Virus record (IMG/VR): IMGVR_UViG_3300030328_002122
Coordinates: 81,195-145,194 of that record
Direction: 5' to 3' (one strand)
Origin: a virus
DNA: 64,000 nt
Shown: one piece after another, positions 27,741 to 59,861 of the stretch
How the letters are laid out: the number at the start of each line of letters is the position of its first letter
How positions within the stretch are numbered: the stretch's first letter is position 1
The notes under the pieces: model-generated
Database searches by the model: none
The model's input: the letters and a program-made list of their open reading frames with translations, nothing else
What the model was told of the DNA's origin: nothing
Made by a program: the position numbers and the translations under genes

Positions 27741-28757
27741 ATGAAACTGTTTAAAATCTTATCAGTACTATTATTATCATTAAGTGTATCATCTGCATTT
27801 GCAGATAAATTAAAAGTTGGATTTATATATGTTGGGCCAGTTGGAGATCATGGTTGGACTTATATGCATGATCAAGGTCGATTAATGGCCGAAAAACATT
27901 TTGGTGACGATATAACAACCACATTTGTAGAATCTGTACCAGAAGGGCCTGATGCAGAAAGAGTTATGACTCAGATGGCTTTACAAGGACATGATATTAT
28001 ATTTGCAACATCATTTGGTTATATGGAACAAATGTTAAATGTTGCTAAAAAATTCCCTAACATAAAATTTGAACACGCAACTGGATATAAAACTGCTGAC
28101 AATATGTCAGTATATTCTTCTAAGTTTTATGAAGGAAGATATGTTCAAGGTGTTATCGCTGGACATATGAGTAAAGAAGGAAAAGCAGGATATATTGCAT
28201 CATTCCCTATTCCAGAAGTTATTCGTGGTATCAATGCATTTTGGTTAGGTGCTACTTCTGTTAATCCAGATTTTGACATAGATGTTGTGTGGGTTAATAC
28301 TTGGTATGATCCTGCTAAAGAAGGTGATGCAGCCAGAGTACTAATCAATCAAGGTGCTGATATTATAACTCAACATACTGATTCAACTGCACCACTATCA
28401 GTTGCAGAAGAGATGGGTATTAAGGGTTTCGGTCAAGCATCTGATATGATTCACTTTGCACCTAATACACAATTAACTTCCATCATAGATCAATGGGGCC
28501 CTTATTATATTAAGAGAATACAGGCTGCGTTAGATGGTACTTGGGAATCTTCTGATACTTGGGGTGGTATGGATACTGGAATGGTTGAAATGGCTCCAAT
28601 GACTAATATGCCTGATAATATTGCTAAGATTGCAGTAAAAGTTGCAAATCAAATAAATGATGGTAAACTAGATCCATTTGGTGGAGAGTTTACTGTAGGT
28701 GAACTATTAGGAATGTCTAAGTATCTTTCTGGTATAGATGCACCAAATCCTAATTAA
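27741..28757 (+). CDS. BMP-family periplasmic substrate-binding protein (PnrA-like)
   Basis: 338 residues with a clear Sec signal peptide (MKLFKILSVLLLSLSVSSAF, then A|D). The mature protein starts DKLKVGFIYVGPVGDHGWTY, typical of the basic membrane protein/Med family that binds purine nucleosides for ABC import; GYIASFPIPEVIRGINAFWL and QGADIITQHTDSTAP are further family segments. It has no lipobox, so a soluble periplasmic protein is expected. It lies 3 bases after a nuclease gene and next to a transporter-like gene. It appears host-derived and full length. Presumably boosts uptake during infection; the ligand is inferred from the family. Confidence 0.88.
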   Translation: MKLFKILSVLLLSLSVSSAFADKLKVGFIYVGPVGDHGWTYMHDQGRLMAEKHFGDDITTTFVESVPEGPDAERVMTQMALQGHDIIFATSFGYMEQMLNVAKKFPNIKFEHATGYKTADNMSVYSSKFYEGRYVQGVIAGHMSKEGKAGYIASFPIPEVIRGINAFWLGATSVNPDFDIDVVWVNTWYDPAKEGDAARVLINQGADIITQHTDSTAPLSVAEEMGIKGFGQASDMIHFAPNTQLTSIIDQWGPYYIKRIQAALDGTWESSDTWGGMDTGMVEMAPMTNMPDNIAKIAVKVANQINDGKLDPFGGEFTVGELLGMSKYLSGIDAPNPN

Positions 28758-36365: not shown

Positions 36366-36678
36366 TATCTATAGTGTAAATGCACAACCCACTACTGGTT
36401 GGGTAATGAAACCAACTCAATGTGGTAATGCAGATGTTGTTATAGAAGGTCTGAAATCAGCAGGAGAAGATCCTTTTGTTTGGATGAATGGTCGTTCTAT
36501 GAGTGTAGAAGGTATATTTCTAGATACCAGATTTGTTTTAGCTATGAACACAAAAACACTTGATTGGACTCTTTTAGAGTTTACTAGAGATAATAAATTT
36601 GCGTGTGTACTAGGATCTGGTAATGGAACAATTAATATGAATACAGAAATAAATAAGAAAAAAGGTGTTGACTTATAA
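36322..36678 (+). CDS. Secreted hypothetical protein
   Basis: 118 residues with a signal peptide (MQKIILIITFLLTLNIYSVN, cleavage about AQ). The mature part has two Cys (QCGNADVV, FACVLG) that could form a disulfide and a beta-rich pattern (WTLLEFTRDNKFACVLGSG). It overlaps the exonuclease gene by 44 bases. Similar small secreted proteins are frequent in marine phages; a periplasmic role such as exclusion is speculative. Confidence 0.6.
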   Translation: MQKIILIITFLLTLNIYSVNAQPTTGWVMKPTQCGNADVVIEGLKSAGEDPFVWMNGRSMSVEGIFLDTRFVLAMNTKTLDWTLLEFTRDNKFACVLGSGNGTINMNTEINKKKGVDL

Positions 36679-36698
36679 TATTCTATATGTTATAAATA
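36668..36698 (+). promoter_or_regulatory. Hybrid early/late promoter for the tmRNA
   Basis: TTGACT at 36668-36673 with a 17-base spacer leads to TATAAATA at 36691-36698, which is at once a sigma70 -10 box (TATAAA) and the T4 late consensus. It sits inside the end of the secreted-protein gene. The same design occurs at gp32 (39441). Confidence 0.65.
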
Positions 36699-36703
36699 AG
36701 GTA

Positions 36704-37100
36704 CAGTTTGTTGATACGAATTGATGTTTGGATAGGACTTGGGGGCAGTACCCAACGCCTCCACCATAGACACACTAGGTTTTGGTATATCAATTGATAT
36801 ATAACCATACCTTTGTACACAATGGTTAACATCATCTGATCGGAAGGTAGGATCAGCTAGTGTGTCTTTGATGGGGGCGAAATAGGATCGACTAACAAAT
36901 GAATATGAGAGTAGAACTGTCGCATGACCTCGTTATCGGTCAAAACAAATAAGTGCAAACAATAATTTTGCGCCTGTAGATTTCGCCATAGCGGCTTAAT
37001 CGTACTGAGTTTTGGTGGTGTACTTGGAAACAGAAACACCACTACATGAATAGGGTCACTACTTAATAGGTGCGTGTGGAGTCATGGTTAACTCCATTTC
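36704..37100 (+). ncRNA. ssrA: Circularly permuted two-piece tmRNA gene
   Basis: The acceptor piece comes first: T-arm TTGGG-GGCAGTA-CCCAA (36739-36755), acceptor strand CGCCTCC (36756-36762), A, CCA (36764-36766). About 105 bases later the 5' piece starts with GGGGGCG (36873-36879), which pairs with CGCCTCC, then AAATAGGATCGAC as in tmRNA D-like arms. The tag frame starts at resume codon GCA (36955) and reads ANNNFAPVDFAIAA with stop at 36997-36999. A GTGGTGT/ACACCAC helix follows, and a hairpin at 37077-37096. This order is the permuted form known from Alphaproteobacteria. It should rescue stalled ribosomes and tag products for proteolysis. Outer ends approximate. Confidence 0.9.
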
Positions 37101-55158: not shown

Positions 55159-55389
55159 ATGACATTTCAAGTAAATAAAATACATAAGTTACAAGACCAA
55201 ATAGAATCACTCACATACGATTGGGTATGGGAAGATATTTCAGAACATTACGGAGTCGAAGAAGTAGAGGAGTTGAATCAAGAACAAATTGATGAAATCA
55301 TGACCTTTGCAGACAGCGATGAGTGTTACGAAGGGTATGTGGGTATGACATTAAGAAGTATATGTGACTCGTGGGATGCAGACTACTAA
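55159..55389 (+). CDS. Acidic hypothetical protein
   Basis: 76 residues, very acidic (EDISEHYGVEEVEELNQEQI), mainly helical. It overlaps the PyrD-like gene by 14 bases. A strongly acidic small phage protein may mimic DNA, but nothing specific supports that. Function unknown. Confidence 0.55.
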   Translation: MTFQVNKIHKLQDQIESLTYDWVWEDISEHYGVEEVEELNQEQIDEIMTFADSDECYEGYVGMTLRSICDSWDADY

Positions 55390-56098
55390 ATTCTTCATAT
55401 CAGCTCCATTCGGTAATTATCTAAAGTTCCAGAACGCAATCAGTGTAACAGGTAGTTGGACAATCGAACCACGACCTGGCTTGATCCCACAAGTTCTGAA
55501 AACATTACGATATGTAAGAGTGAATGGAGTATGGGGTTGGAGAAACAAAATAGGTCTAAGGAACGCTGGTATTCATGAAGGTCTAAGACGTATGACCAAT
55601 TCTTTTGATGTAATGAGTATTGCATCAGTACAGAAATACGATTGGATTAACTTTGATAGTATACTACCAGAACATCAAAACATAGAGGTGAATATCAGCT
55701 GTCCTAACCTAGATAAAGACGAAGATGCAACACAATTCCCACACTTTGATACACTTAACAATGGTAAAAGACAATGGTGCATCTGTAAAGTTCCACCTAC
55801 AATAAAAGAATATAAACTAGACCAAATCATCAACGATTATGGATATACACAAATACACGCAAGTAATACACTCGCTAGTGATAAAGGTGGACTATCTGGT
55901 AAAAGACTTGCACCACATACACTTAGAATACTAGACTATATTAAAAGAAAATACCCTCATATAACAGTAATAACAGGGGGTGGAATAACAGAAAAGTATC
56001 AGACACATATCTATAAAGAAAGAGGTGCAGATCATATCAGTCTAGGAACAGTCTGCTTCACGCCATGGAAAGTAAAGAGGATCATAGATGAAACTTAA
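55376..56098 (+). CDS. Dihydroorotate dehydrogenase-like FMN enzyme
   Basis: 240 residues from the ATG at 55376. The TIM-barrel pattern of PyrD is visible: VNISCPN (105-111, substrate Asn and neighbouring Cys), CKVPPT (137-142), HASNTLASDKGGLSGKRLAP (161-180) and VITGGGI (198-204) with GADHISLGT (218-225) for FMN phosphate. It would oxidise dihydroorotate to orotate. It is shorter at the N-terminus than the usual roughly 310-340 residues, so activity is uncertain. A phosphoribosyltransferase resembling PyrE lies at 57444. Confidence 0.78.
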   Translation: MQTTKFFISAPFGNYLKFQNAISVTGSWTIEPRPGLIPQVLKTLRYVRVNGVWGWRNKIGLRNAGIHEGLRRMTNSFDVMSIASVQKYDWINFDSILPEHQNIEVNISCPNLDKDEDATQFPHFDTLNNGKRQWCICKVPPTIKEYKLDQIINDYGYTQIHASNTLASDKGGLSGKRLAPHTLRILDYIKRKYPHITVITGGGITEKYQTHIYKERGADHISLGTVCFTPWKVKRIIDET

Positions 56099-56285
56099 TA
56101 AGGATATCATTAACTTCTTAGACACTATAAAGAGAAAGGATATCCATACAGAGATAGATTATATATCACCATTGGTTAAAAAGTATGGAATGAATAAGGA
56201 ACTCGCAGAGAGAATAAGACATGAGTATGTATGCCATGTACTTAAAAAGGCTACTGCGTATGTATCATGGGAAAACATGGAATAA
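56088..56285 (+). CDS. Small helical hypothetical protein
   Basis: 65 residues (MKLNKDIINFLDTIKRKDIH...), overlapping the PyrD-like gene by 11 bases. Entirely helical in appearance with a basic pattern. Last gene of the 51.3-56.3 kb operon. Function unknown. Confidence 0.55.
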   Translation: MKLNKDIINFLDTIKRKDIHTEIDYISPLVKKYGMNKELAERIRHEYVCHVLKKATAYVSWENME

Positions 56286-56404
56286 AATGGGATTTGCGTA
56301 CAATTTAAAAAAAGGTATAAAAAAAGGTAGTTAGGTGTTCTCTTTTGTGCATTAAAGGGTGTATTCTATCACGAAAATTTTTTTTTGTCAAGGGGTTTTT
56401 TCAC

Positions 56405-56447
56405 TTGACAGGGAAAACGAATCAGTATATAGTATAAGTATGATTCG
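56405..56447 (+). promoter_or_regulatory. Sigma70 promoter with CGAATCA in the spacer and TGATTCG downstream
   Basis: TTGACA at 56405-56410, 17-base spacer with ACGAATCA (56417-56424), TATAGT at 56428-56433, then TGATTCG at 56441-56447. The only promoter here with the element in both orientations. The 120 bases before it (56286-56404) hold no gene that I can see. Confidence 0.8.
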
Positions 56448-56520
56448 GTTTTTAACAATAGCAGTGGTCTTATGGTTGGTAATTGTGGGTGCATATGCGG
56501 CCCTATTATTATCAATTTAA
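56440..56520 (+). CDS. Possible 26-residue transmembrane peptide on a leaderless mRNA
   Basis: ATG at 56440, on the predicted transcription start (7 bases after the -10 box). Product MIRFLTIAVVLWLVIVGAYA plus six residues: one basic N-terminal residue and a single membrane helix. The next promoter starts 14 bases after its stop, so the transcript carries little else. It may be a genuine micropeptide or only a short regulatory RNA. Confidence 0.4.
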   Translation: MIRFLTIAVVLWLVIVGAYAALLLSI

Positions 56521-56533
56521 TTACAAATATCTC

Positions 56534-56594
56534 TTGACAAACTCTTGACAAGTTGATATGATGACTATGCTAGGTATGATATAAGGTGATTCGT
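56534..56594 (+). promoter_or_regulatory. Sigma70 promoter with TGATTCGT next to the ATG
   Basis: TTGACA at 56534-56539, 17-base spacer, TATGAT at 56557-56562; a second TTGACA at 56545 has no good -10. TGATTCGT at 56587-56594 lies just before the ATG at 56597, as at 50530. Confidence 0.7.
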
Positions 56595-56596
56595 TT

Positions 56597-56839
56597 ATGA
56601 TAATTTCTAATTGGGATTCAGAGTGTTACATGGGTAGAGATTCGAGTGATTCGGAGTCTATCTATAACACTACAGAGATGCACACAGGGCCAGAGAATAA
56701 GAGAGTTTGTCCTTGTGATTCGTGTCCTCTTTCTCTCCAGTGTATGCAGAACATCACAGAATGTTCTGCATTTCGCAATTGGGCGAGTAAGGGTGATTAT
56801 AATGATAATGATTTAGGTAAGAGATTGAGAGGTTGTTAA
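56597..56839 (+). CDS. Small cysteine-cluster protein
   Basis: 80 residues. The conserved-looking core CPCDSCPLSLQCMQNITEC followed by SAFRNWASKGDY has four or five Cys suited to a metal or Fe-S site and is familiar from short marine phage proteins. Acidic, Ser-rich N-terminus. First gene of its operon. Function unknown. Confidence 0.65.
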   Translation: MIISNWDSECYMGRDSSDSESIYNTTEMHTGPENKRVCPCDSCPLSLQCMQNITECSAFRNWASKGDYNDNDLGKRLRGC

Positions 56840-57114
56840 TGACAAAAGAAACATCTATAGGAGAACTATTACAGTTTGATGAGGCGTTGAAGTCAGACTT
56901 GTTCATACAACAAGCAGAGAATAAGAAACTCTTTGACGAGATGTGTGATAAGAACGATTGGAAGATGCCTTTTAATTGTTCTATACCTACAGAGATGTAT
57001 GCGTCTTATAATGAGGCGTGCATCTGGTTTACTGGTGCAGAGTTAACTGTTATAAACGAATCAGGCGGTGTGTGCTTCTGTGAGTGTGAAGGATATTATA
57101 ACGCAATGGGTTGA
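56839..57114 (+). CDS. Hypothetical protein
   Basis: 91 residues from the ATG at 56839, which overlaps the previous stop. Cys are clustered at the end (GGVCFCECEGYY). Soluble, mixed helix and strand. The next promoter -35 begins over its stop codon. Function unknown. Confidence 0.55.
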   Translation: MTKETSIGELLQFDEALKSDLFIQQAENKKLFDEMCDKNDWKMPFNCSIPTEMYASYNEACIWFTGAELTVINESGGVCFCECEGYYNAMG

Positions 57115-57179
57115 CAAGCACACTATAATATGATATAATATGTGAACTGATTCGGGCCACCCCCTAAAACTGGGAGCCC
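57111..57179 (+). promoter_or_regulatory. Sigma70 promoter, TGATTCGG element and leader hairpin
   Basis: TTGACA at 57111-57116, 17-base spacer, TATAAT at 57134-57139, TGATTCGG at 57148-57155. A GC-rich hairpin (GGGC/GCCC and CCC/GGG, 57154-57179) follows at the start of a roughly 100-base leader before the ATG at 57251; it could protect the mRNA or control translation. Confidence 0.7.
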
Positions 57180-57250
57180 AATCGTAATCTATAAATGCAA
57201 TAAAGATACAGATAAATATTTCAAATTAAATATAAGCTTATGGTGGTTTT

Positions 57251-57460
57251 ATGAATTGTTGGCATTGTAATACAGAGTTAATATGGGGTGGAGATCATGA
57301 TGCAGATGAAGATGAGTTAGAGTTTTCTATCGTTACTAATCTCTCATGTCCGAATGAGCATTGCAGAGCTTCTGTCTTGGTCTATTTACCTAGAGATGAT
57401 ACAGAGGATATGCCTTGGACAGTTCAAGGTGAGGAGAGTCAATATGACACACAGAACTGA
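57251..57460 (+). CDS. Small zinc-ribbon protein
   Basis: 69 residues. CWHC (residues 3-6) and CPNEHC form a zinc ribbon. MNCWHCNTELIWGGDHDADE then FSIVTNLSCP is a conserved pattern in T4-like phages. Acidic C-terminus. It overlaps the phosphoribosyltransferase by 17 bases. Function unknown. Confidence 0.72.
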   Translation: MNCWHCNTELIWGGDHDADEDELEFSIVTNLSCPNEHCRASVLVYLPRDDTEDMPWTVQGEESQYDTQN

Positions 57461-57860
57461 AGCAAAACTATTTGAGTATGGCGACTTCATATCCCACTCT
57501 GGTAATACTCTTAAATTTAAGATAGAGTGTGATGCGTTTGATATTGATGATTGGAATACGATTGCAGATATGATTATGACATTCCAAGATGAACCATTTA
57601 GAACTGTCGAAGGTATTCCTAGAGGTGGTATTCCTCTTGCAGATGCGTTAAGGAGATATGCAACAGGCGATCCCTCTCATCAACCTATGATAGTTGATGA
57701 TGTATTTACTACAGGCAAATCATTCATAGATTACTTAGATGAACATTATTCAAATACATTGATGGCATGGGGTTATAAGTGGGTAGTCTTTGCACGAACA
57801 CCTATACATACAACACCAGCACATAAGTTAGGTGTCAAAGCGTTGTTTACCATGCCATGA
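57444..57860 (+). CDS. Phosphoribosyltransferase, orotate PRTase-like
   Basis: 138 residues from the ATG at 57444 (SD GAGGAGAG). The PRPP-binding motif is IVDDVFTTGKS (83-93), matching the VEDVxTTGGS type. FISHSGNTLKFKIECDAF resembles the substrate strand of PyrE and EGIPRGGIPLADALRR the following loop. Shorter than cellular PyrE (about 200), so it may be a minimal version or use another base. With the PyrD-like protein at 55376 it suggests phage-boosted UMP synthesis. Confidence 0.75.
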   Translation: MTHRTEAKLFEYGDFISHSGNTLKFKIECDAFDIDDWNTIADMIMTFQDEPFRTVEGIPRGGIPLADALRRYATGDPSHQPMIVDDVFTTGKSFIDYLDEHYSNTLMAWGYKWVVFARTPIHTTPAHKLGVKALFTMP

Positions 57861-58378
57861 AATATAAATCAAATATTTCAAAACCATTATTACTATTAGT
57901 CTTTCTCTTTGCAGTACAAGAAATGATTGCAAGAGAATCACATATGTATGAACTGATAGGGTTCATAGAAAACAATAGTGAATATTCTTACACAGGCACA
58001 CCCTTACCCACAGTAAAAGAAATGTCAAATAAGGCTATTTGTGATCAGTTCAAAATGCTTTACCCATGTGACATTGCAGGCTACTATGATTATCGTACCG
58101 ATCTTATTGTTATCGCAACAACACCTACGGGCGGTATGATTGAGGAAAACTTTTACGAAGTGGTATTAATCCATGAGTTAGTACATTACTTGCAGTATCA
58201 TCAAGGGTATTTTAATGTAGTGGAGTGCAAACAACAATTAGAAGCAGATGCGTTTCGTCTGCAAGACGAGTATATAGATCATATGGGATACGATCCAGCA
58301 AACAAAAACAATCCCCTCTTTGCTCTGATGGCAAGTATGTGTAGAGGTGATAACAGAGGTGGTCATGGGAGTATGTAA
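57857..58378 (+). CDS. Exported zinc metalloprotease
   Basis: 173 residues. An N-terminal hydrophobic segment (PLLLLVFLFAVQEMIA) acts as signal or anchor. The zinc motif is HELVHYLQYHQ (His106, Glu107, His110), with a likely third ligand Glu129 in QQLEADAFRLQ, a gluzincin-like pattern. Four Cys (ICDQF, YPCDIAG, VVECKQQ, SMCRGD) could form disulfides, supporting a periplasmic site. It may cleave envelope proteins or weaken the wall. Target unknown. Confidence 0.75.
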   Translation: MKYKSNISKPLLLLVFLFAVQEMIARESHMYELIGFIENNSEYSYTGTPLPTVKEMSNKAICDQFKMLYPCDIAGYYDYRTDLIVIATTPTGGMIEENFYEVVLIHELVHYLQYHQGYFNVVECKQQLEADAFRLQDEYIDHMGYDPANKNNPLFALMASMCRGDNRGGHGSM

Positions 58379-58724
58379 AAAAATGATTCAAAAAATCGGA
58401 AAATGGTTCGGAAGAGTTTGTATAAGTTGGAGTATCTTTGTGAATACTTTGTTTGGTGGAAAGAATAATCAAACTGTGAGTGCAAGACAGTACTTTAGAC
58501 AATTACAGAATAAATGGAATATTTGTTTTTTGATTAATGGTTTCTTCTGGTGGGAAGAAGATCATTGTAAAGACAGCTATAATAAATGGGAAGTGATTAA
58601 TAATGCCATGAAGTATTATGATGAATACAAAGAGAAGTATTCTGTTAATGCGTATGAGTTGGCAGAAGATTATACAGAGGACAAAGATCCTTTGCATGAT
58701 TATTATCGTTTGATGAGTCAGTAA
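58365..58724 (+). CDS. Hypothetical aromatic-rich protein
   Basis: About 119 residues from the ATG at 58365; ATGs at 58347 and 58383 are alternatives. Weakly hydrophobic N-terminal part (WFGRVCISWSIFVNTLFGG) and a Trp/Tyr/acidic C-terminal half (FFWWEEDHCKDSYNKWEVIN). It overlaps the metalloprotease stop. Function unknown. Confidence 0.55.
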   Translation: MGVCKKMIQKIGKWFGRVCISWSIFVNTLFGGKNNQTVSARQYFRQLQNKWNICFLINGFFWWEEDHCKDSYNKWEVINNAMKYYDEYKEKYSVNAYELAEDYTEDKDPLHDYYRLMSQ

Positions 58725-58727
58725 CTC

Positions 58728-58763
58728 TTGACATTGTTATCATAACATGGTATACTGATTCGT
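58728..58763 (+). promoter_or_regulatory. Sigma70 promoter with TGATTCGT at the start site
   Basis: TTGACA at 58728-58733, 17-base spacer ending ACATGG, TATACT at 58751-58756, TGATTCGT at 58756-58763, sharing the last base of the -10 box. Confidence 0.82.
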
Positions 58764-58792
58764 AGTTAACAATAGAGAAGAGTGTATATATT

Positions 58793-58975
58793 ATGAAACT
58801 TACTGATAAGCAATTTAAGGAAATTCAATCTAGAATGAATGAACTTATAGAAATCAAAAAAAATCTACCAGATTTAGTTAATGACTTAGGTTGGGAATTT
58901 GAAAGAATGACTAGCTCTGGTCAAGAAACCTTAAATAAAATATGCAAAATTATTGGTAATCCCCCTTTTAGTTGA
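58793..58975 (+). CDS. Small helical hypothetical protein
   Basis: 60 residues (MKLTDKQFKEIQSRMNELIE...), helical, single gene between two TGATTCGT promoters. Weak SD (AGAAGAG). Function unknown. Confidence 0.6.
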   Translation: MKLTDKQFKEIQSRMNELIEIKKNLPDLVNDLGWEFERMTSSGQETLNKICKIIGNPPFS

Positions 58976-58984
58976 AAAAAAGAC

Positions 58985-59020
58985 TTGACTTTGTTCTCAG
59001 AACATGGTATAGTGATTCGT
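58985..59020 (+). promoter_or_regulatory. Sigma70 promoter with TGATTCGT at the start site
   Basis: TTGACT at 58985-58990, 17-base spacer ending ACATGG, TATAGT at 59008-59013, TGATTCGT at 59013-59020. The leader is GA-rich (CGAGAGAAAGAGAGAG). Confidence 0.82.
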
Positions 59021-59045
59021 AAACGAGAGAAAGAGAGAGAAAATA

Positions 59046-59516
59046 ATGGCATATATTTCAACTGAAGATGTTAGACATATCCGAAACACTTTGAAAAAAG
59101 AACTTCCACAGTATAAATTTTCTGTGGTTCGTGATCATCATTCAAGTGTTTCTGTTTCTATTATGAAAGGCCCTGCCTTCAAAGATTGGAACTATAGGGA
59201 TAGGTGGACTAACGAAATTAAAGTTGGTTCTTTAAATGATGGTGAACATCACCAAATCAATCATCACTACACAGAAGAGTTCTACGGAAAAGAGAATGCA
59301 AAAATCTTAGATAAAATCTATAAGATTATGAAAGTTGCACCTTCTTTGAATGGTGGAAAAGAATGGTATGATGATTCAGATGCCATGACAGATTATTTTG
59401 ATACTGCATACTATATGCATATCGGAGTTGGTAAGTGGGATAAACCTTATGAGGTTGTTGACCATCAGTTGGATTCGTTGGTTGATGCGTGTAAAAATAG
59501 TTTGGAGGCTGCGTAA
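59046..59516 (+). CDS. Conserved-looking hypothetical protein
   Basis: 156 residues. A beta-containing N-terminal half (YKFSVVRDHHSSVSVSIMKG) and a middle with His (GEHHQINHHYTEEF), then AYYMHIGVGKWDKPYEV. It has the look of the LPD29-type phage domain with FxVRxxxxSxxxSI, though I cannot confirm that. Function unknown. Shares one base with the next gene. Confidence 0.65.
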   Translation: MAYISTEDVRHIRNTLKKELPQYKFSVVRDHHSSVSVSIMKGPAFKDWNYRDRWTNEIKVGSLNDGEHHQINHHYTEEFYGKENAKILDKIYKIMKVAPSLNGGKEWYDDSDAMTDYFDTAYYMHIGVGKWDKPYEVVDHQLDSLVDACKNSLEAA

Positions 59517-59824
59517 TGAATTTAGTACATGAGAAATTTAATAATTCTGATTTGAAGCTTCCTATTGAACAGAGAAACATTTATACAACAATGTTTCTGG
59601 ATTATGTATGGGGATTTTACAATCATGTTGATGGTGTCTATCCTATTGATGGGTTGACTAAAGATATGGTAGTCAAAGCAACTAACAAGTATTTAAATAG
59701 ATGTTTAGAAGAAAATAATACTTGCAATTGGGGTGATGGCGATTCCTTAGATAGAGAAAGGGTACGAGATATAATCCTTGACGATAATAATCTAGGACAT
59801 GAAGATTATTTTTCAAGATTTTAA
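59516..59824 (+). CDS. Hypothetical protein
   Basis: 102 residues (MNLVHEKFNNSDLKLPIEQR...), acidic, with a C-terminal segment CNWGDGDSLDRERVRDIILD. Translationally coupled to the previous gene (TAATG). Function unknown. Confidence 0.6.
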   Translation: MNLVHEKFNNSDLKLPIEQRNIYTTMFLDYVWGFYNHVDGVYPIDGLTKDMVVKATNKYLNRCLEENNTCNWGDGDSLDRERVRDIILDDNNLGHEDYFSRF

Positions 59825-59832
59825 TTATTTAC

Positions 59833-59861
59833 TTGACACAGAAAACGAATCAGTATATAAT
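59833..59861 (+). promoter_or_regulatory. Sigma70 promoter with CGAATCA element in the spacer
   Basis: TTGACA at 59833-59838, 17-base spacer with ACGAATCA at 59845-59852, TATAAT at 59856-59861, then a leader nearly identical to that at 32752 (ATAGGTATAGTTAACAAGAG). Confidence 0.85.

Follow-up and report, generated by a model that had tools for sequence, protein, structure and literature searches.

The virus locus described here encodes two small proteins that resemble dihydroorotate dehydrogenase (DHODH, PyrD) and a phosphoribosyltransferase (PRTase) of the orotate type (OPRT, PyrE), raising the question of whether a phage carries two consecutive steps of pyrimidine synthesis in miniature. 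The genes lie in the final 64 kb of a 145,194-base IMG/VR virus record; this 64 kb stretch, the DNA that was analysed, is called the window below. The record belongs to a tailed phage whose relatives are numerous among marine viral contigs. Our best explanation is that the pair probably consists of a compact DHODH and a mini-OPRT, which together would form a pyrimidine module leading from dihydroorotate to OMP. From the comparisons of families, predicted structures and gene order that follow, we infer the catalytic activity of the phage enzymes, their substrates and their benefit to the phage.

Both open reading frames are real, lie on the + strand and hold the motifs first read in them (NISCPN, HASNT and GGLSG in the DHODH-like protein; IPRGGIPLADA and VDDVFTTGKS in the PRTase-like protein). 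Family alignments place the start of the DHODH gene at ATG 55379, its first 11 bases being shared with a small upstream ORF, and the start of the PRTase gene at ATG 57444 (Table 1). The small ORF before the DHODH gene is present too upstream of a 90% relative in contig L002, and neither of the two small ORFs has a Pfam match. The heptamer TGATTCG occurs at 17 sites in the window where 3.7 are expected, a four- to fivefold excess, and may be a transcription-start or operator element; its sites cluster at 56418-59852 and often stand directly downstream of sigma-70-like hexamers. The initial annotation had placed both genes under TGATTCG promoters. This applies to the PRTase gene, which has a putative promoter 290 bp upstream, and not to the DHODH-like gene, since TGATTCG is absent between 51276 and 56417 and hence no site lies close before it.

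Table 1. Positions in the window of the two genes and of the elements beside them.
Feature	Position	Strand	Basis
Compact DHODH (PyrD-like), 239 aa	55379..56098	+	PF01180, family profile, AlphaFold model, sole copy in Actinomarina
Mini orotate phosphoribosyltransferase (PyrE-like, predicted), 138 aa, without catalytic-loop segment	57444..57860	+	Profile-profile comparison, model, Actinomarina operon
Putative sigma-70-type promoter TTGACA-17-TATAAT, with TGATTCG 8 nt downstream	57111..57154	+	12/12 consensus match
Small ORF, 69 aa, between promoter and mini-OPRT, overlapping the mini-OPRT start	57251..57460	+	ORF list
Small ORF, 76 aa, overlapping the DHODH gene start	55159..55389	+	ORF list

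The PRTase-like protein (mini-PRT) belongs to a family of 118-139 aa, and as a single sequence it falls under the cut-off of every model: PF00156 gives E 0.025 and TIGR00336 E 0.0019, the latter with 18 bits against a curated cut-off of 106.8. Its identity is secured by profile and fold comparison. Of the PRTases that the family profile matches in the PDB, five are OPRTs (E 0.024 to 1.3) and the sixth is a purine PRTase (E 2.7). Direct alignment of profiles with hhalign gave 96% for OPRT (score 59.4), as against 66% for PyrR, 60% for an XPRT-like family, 31% for APRT and 30% for HPRT; column-shuffled controls reached maxima of 15-21, none above 21.4, and a PRTase motif by chance can be rejected on this comparison. 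In the Foldseek search with the predicted structure (pTM 0.64, mean pLDDT 69), OPRTs fill ranks 1-33, counting the OPRT-family protein HP1257, and APRT appears at rank 34. The reverse comparison, with canonical OPRT as the query, separates less sharply, scoring 51.7 for the mini-PRT of the ocean bacterium Candidatus Actinomarina and 49.4 for the XPRT-like protein of the same organism. When the phage pair was compared with other FMN and PRTase families, the best matches were DHODH and OPRT.

The proposal of consecutive PyrD and PyrE steps is supported chiefly by bacteria whose complete pyr operon places the two families side by side and whose genomes contain no canonical version at another locus. 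We searched 84,980 species genomes with the DHODH alignment and obtained at least 80 loci; those listed come mainly from Candidatus Actinomarina, Phycisphaerae and other planctomycetes, Marinimicrobia and Francisella. Among the matches listed, all 24 Actinomarina-type loci carry pyrF, the compact DHODH gene and the mini-PRT gene directly in that order, preceded, where the contig reaches, by pyrR-pyrB-pyrC-carA-carB; the DHODH-PRT pair forms the last two genes of this pyrimidine operon, whose members were checked by NCBIfam and Pfam. PyrF also adjoins the DHODH gene in Francisella and at loci L085 and L090. In ten of ten Actinomarina genomes the compact DHODH gene is the sole DHO_dh match, and none of the ten has a pyrE model match above 30 bits, where 106.8 are needed. 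Judged by length and position, the weak matches to the pyrE model correspond to PRPP synthase and PyrR; from their sizes and matches, the remaining PRTases can be assigned as HPRT, PyrR, PRPP synthase, an XPRT-like protein and a ComF-sized protein. As completeness figures are not given for these genomes, the absence of canonical enzymes rests on the agreement of ten separate genomes. The compact PyrD and mini PyrE appear, from this gene content, to be the only PyrD and PyrE of Actinomarina.

Both families of the window are thus present, and adjacent, in the Actinomarina operon pyrR-pyrB-pyrC-carA-carB-pyrF-pyrD-pyrE, whereas the phage genes lie 1.3 kb apart without the other operon genes and are about 48% (DHODH) and about 41% (PRT) identical to their Actinomarina relatives. 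The phage proteins had been described as shorter than cellular versions, which is true of the canonical enzymes and not of these cellular relatives of equal size. Same-size, full-length relatives are conserved in bacteria and phages, and we therefore reject the idea that the phage genes are ordinary PyrD and PyrE in shortened or degenerate form; the pair possibly constitutes a compact, separate class of both enzymes. In the DHODH tree, all phage sequences other than L013 and L029 fall in one clade (support 100/100), together with one short MAG contig, and this clade joins a group containing the Actinomarina clade (83/91, not strong), a topology compatible with a single ancient gene exchange linking phages and the Actinomarina lineage. 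Four contigs filed under Bacteroidetes, Marinimicrobia, Chloroflexi and Thaumarchaeota MAGs (L059, L060, L096 and L132) contain phage genes or sequences similar to them and seem to have been binned wrongly.

We surveyed the distribution of both families in phages. The DHODH family is found in 20 IMG/VR contigs and in a 595 kb phage record (LR756511, 30% identity), and the PRTase family in 10 IMG/VR contigs with a single query and at least 369 with an alignment. Cyanophages carry pyrE as an auxiliary gene (PMC9983427) and pyrE is enriched in viruses (PMC4022391), so a phage-borne OPRT step is common to these systems and ours; however, tblastn with the mini-PRT matched none of 50,697 annotated phage records, and the known phage PyrE therefore belongs to another sequence family. 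At least eight phage records hold both families (that of the window, G010, G020, G021, G023 and the contigs of L023, L027 and L030). PyrF occurs together with the DHODH in G015 and G047, overlaps the mini-PRT gene in phage L157 and shares a record with the mini-PRT in G052, and PRPP synthase (Prs) is found in four phage records. We found no single phage record that combines all three pyrimidine steps; most of the records are fragments. Other neighbours include, at L031:1615-4454, a row of DHODH, glyceraldehyde-3-phosphate dehydrogenase, a weak class I aldolase match and mini-PRTase, and, between or near the two genes in L023, L027, L033 and L096, a small protein like class II aminoacyl-tRNA synthetases (PF00152 in L033).

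The same neighbourhoods supply the main alternative, in which the mini-PRT would be a purine PRTase (for guanine, hypoxanthine or xanthine) that converts G to A nucleotides together with a phage enzyme of the GMP-reductase family, leaving the DHODH alone in pyrimidine metabolism. A gene of the IMPDH/GMP-reductase family lies within 6 kb of the mini-PRT in 21 of 80 phage loci, in both orders, often overlapping it and in several cases directly; such loci include the L003 group, L230, L247, L250, L256 and others. This pair stands without a DHODH in the 99 kb record G002 and the 82 kb record G005. By comparison, the examined flanks of only 2 of the 80 loci contain a DHODH, and the two counts together make a purine substrate the main rival. 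We nevertheless consider it unlikely: the profile matches to HPRT and to XPRT-like proteins trail far behind that to OPRT (30% and 60% against 96%), Actinomarina has separate HPRT and XPRT-like genes while its mini gene sits in the pyr operon, and the mini gene of phage L157 is the one overlapped by PyrF.

If the mini-PRT is an OPRT, it is one that lacks a central catalytic element. It shares with PyrE (TIGR00336; structures 1lh0, 2yzk and 6tai) the position of the hood motif, the PP-loop, the PRPP motif, a conserved C-terminal Arg and the place in the pyr operon, but it measures 118-139 aa against about 190-215 for the canonical enzyme and falls far under the NCBIfam cut-off. The alignment of the two profiles contains one large gap, exactly at strand beta-2 and the catalytic loop of OPRT, and this segment is missing from the mini-PRT. 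The spacing from GIPRGG to DD is 19 or 22 residues in 72 of 80 mini-PRTs, and the other eight differ just in how the motif is counted. In addition, the position of the hood residue K26 is His throughout the family. In E. coli OPRT the catalytic loop comprises residues 99-109, within which K103 is essential and its acetylation lowers kcat 150-300 fold (PMC10087573). Since this loop is absent from the mini-PRT, canonical catalysis cannot apply.

Loss of the loop also raises the alternative of a non-catalytic protein of PRTase fold, a regulator or a partner subunit of PyrD or PyrF. Regulators of this fold exist, PyrR among them, and the constant position of the Actinomarina mini-PRT beside pyr genes would suit such a role. 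Against it, the PRPP-binding residues of the DD..TTG.S motif (D85, D86, T89, T90, G91 and S93) and the PP-loop GIPRGG are invariant in all 80 phage sequences, and the ten Actinomarina genomes offer no other OPRT candidate over the cut-off, so that we hold a non-catalytic role to be very unlikely. Returning to an active OPRT, a bolder version is conceivable, though we put it forward tentatively and think it doubtful: the mini-PRT may represent a class of OPRT that has no loop and is smaller than any other known, which took the place of canonical PyrE in Candidatus Actinomarina and became widespread among marine phages. Its active site would then be closed in some other way, for instance by the product of an adjacent gene, such as the compact PyrD or PyrF, acting as a partner subunit.

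The DHODH-like protein is recognized more directly. As a single sequence it exceeds the gathering score of DHO_dh (PF01180; 42.6 bits against 27, E 5.6e-11), and the best PDB match of its family profile is the class 1B PyrD 1ep1 (E 4.2e-17), to which it aligns at the Cys and both Asn residues of NxSCPN, at the VK-x-P strand Lys and at the Asn-Thr of xNT. N105, S107, C108, P109 and N110, the catalytic Cys motif of class 1, are invariant in 18 of 18 compact sequences, as are the VK-x-P Lys and the xNT Asn-Thr throughout the family. DHODHs occupy the top fold ranks of the AlphaFold model (pTM 0.74, mean pLDDT 69). The FMN TIM-barrel fold and the NxSCPN (with its catalytic Cys), VK-x-P, xNT, GGLSG, GGG and GT motifs are common to the compact family and class 1 DHODHs (L. 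lactis PyrDB, 1ep1-1ep3, and PyrDA, 1dor). The compact family, which has bacterial members too, differs in its size (225-250 aa against about 310), in an xNT-to-GGLSG stretch shorter by more than 10 residues and apparently in an invariant Gly (Gly25, in the register given by the profile and NCBIfam matches) at the place of the N-terminal Lys of class 1 (Lys43 of L. lactis DHODA). A search for PyrK (PF10418), the iron-sulphur/FAD subunit of class 1B, gave no match in any phage record or Actinomarina genome tested, whereas its controls, L. lactis and B. subtilis among them, were positive; assignment to class 1B is rejected for this lack of PyrK. A literature search found no paper that directly documents a DHODH in a phage. 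In the planctomycete of L148, a second protein of the DHO_dh family (L148:220-1314) is without the NxSCPN cysteine motif, which may leave the compact DHODH as the one true PyrD of that organism.

That the protein acts instead on another pyrimidine, for example on uracil in the manner of dihydropyrimidine dehydrogenase (DPD), seems highly improbable: the DHO_dh fold family does include such enzymes, a DPD chain occurs among the fold matches of the model, and the compact family apparently has Gly for the class 1 Lys, with a short substrate loop, but class 1 DHODH outranks PreA and DPD as the best match, and no DHODH match besides the compact one occurs in genomes whose pyr operon is complete in all other respects.

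We therefore favour a dihydroorotate-to-OMP module, in which the compact FMN-dependent DHODH would oxidize dihydroorotate to orotate and the mini-OPRT would join orotate to PRPP to yield OMP, although it has no counterpart of the loop with which each subunit of a canonical OPRT covers the active site of its neighbour. PyrF was not found anywhere in the 145 kb record of the window, for which reason we reject a complete UMP branch in this phage, and PRPP synthase was likewise not found in the record; host PyrF would complete UMP, and the phage would gain more pyrimidine nucleotides during infection. The original PyrD/PyrE module reading was right in outline, with the amendments that the proteins belong to what may be a distinct compact class, not to truncated ordinary enzymes, and that PyrF is missing from the record. 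If the mini-OPRT is active, a catalytic loop thought essential to OPRT chemistry would be dispensable, in an enzyme of 118-139 residues, and activity would also fill a seemingly missing step in the Candidatus Actinomarina genomes, assign a role to a family of proteins found in at least 369 IMG/VR contigs and extend the marine phage repertoire by the de novo pyrimidine steps from dihydroorotate to OMP. The point of greatest interest to us is that a predicted OPRT without its catalytic loop has no competitor for this step in a bacterial operon, which becomes visible only through its relatives.

Elsewhere in the window, the NrdJ, ThyX and deoxynucleotidase of the initial annotation are borne out by Pfam as a B12-type RNR, ThyX and an NT5C-type nucleotidase. 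A phage tmRNA at 36664-37046 is of the alphaproteobacterial permuted type (Rfam RF01849, 116 bits), with the tag ANNNFAPVDFAIAA according to ARAGORN; given this tmRNA type, the host need not be Actinomarina. The window also encodes, at 27741-28757, a Bmp/PnrA-like substrate-binding protein of an ABC transporter (PF02608, E 3.5e-54), an unusual cargo in a phage, from a family that includes nucleoside binders.
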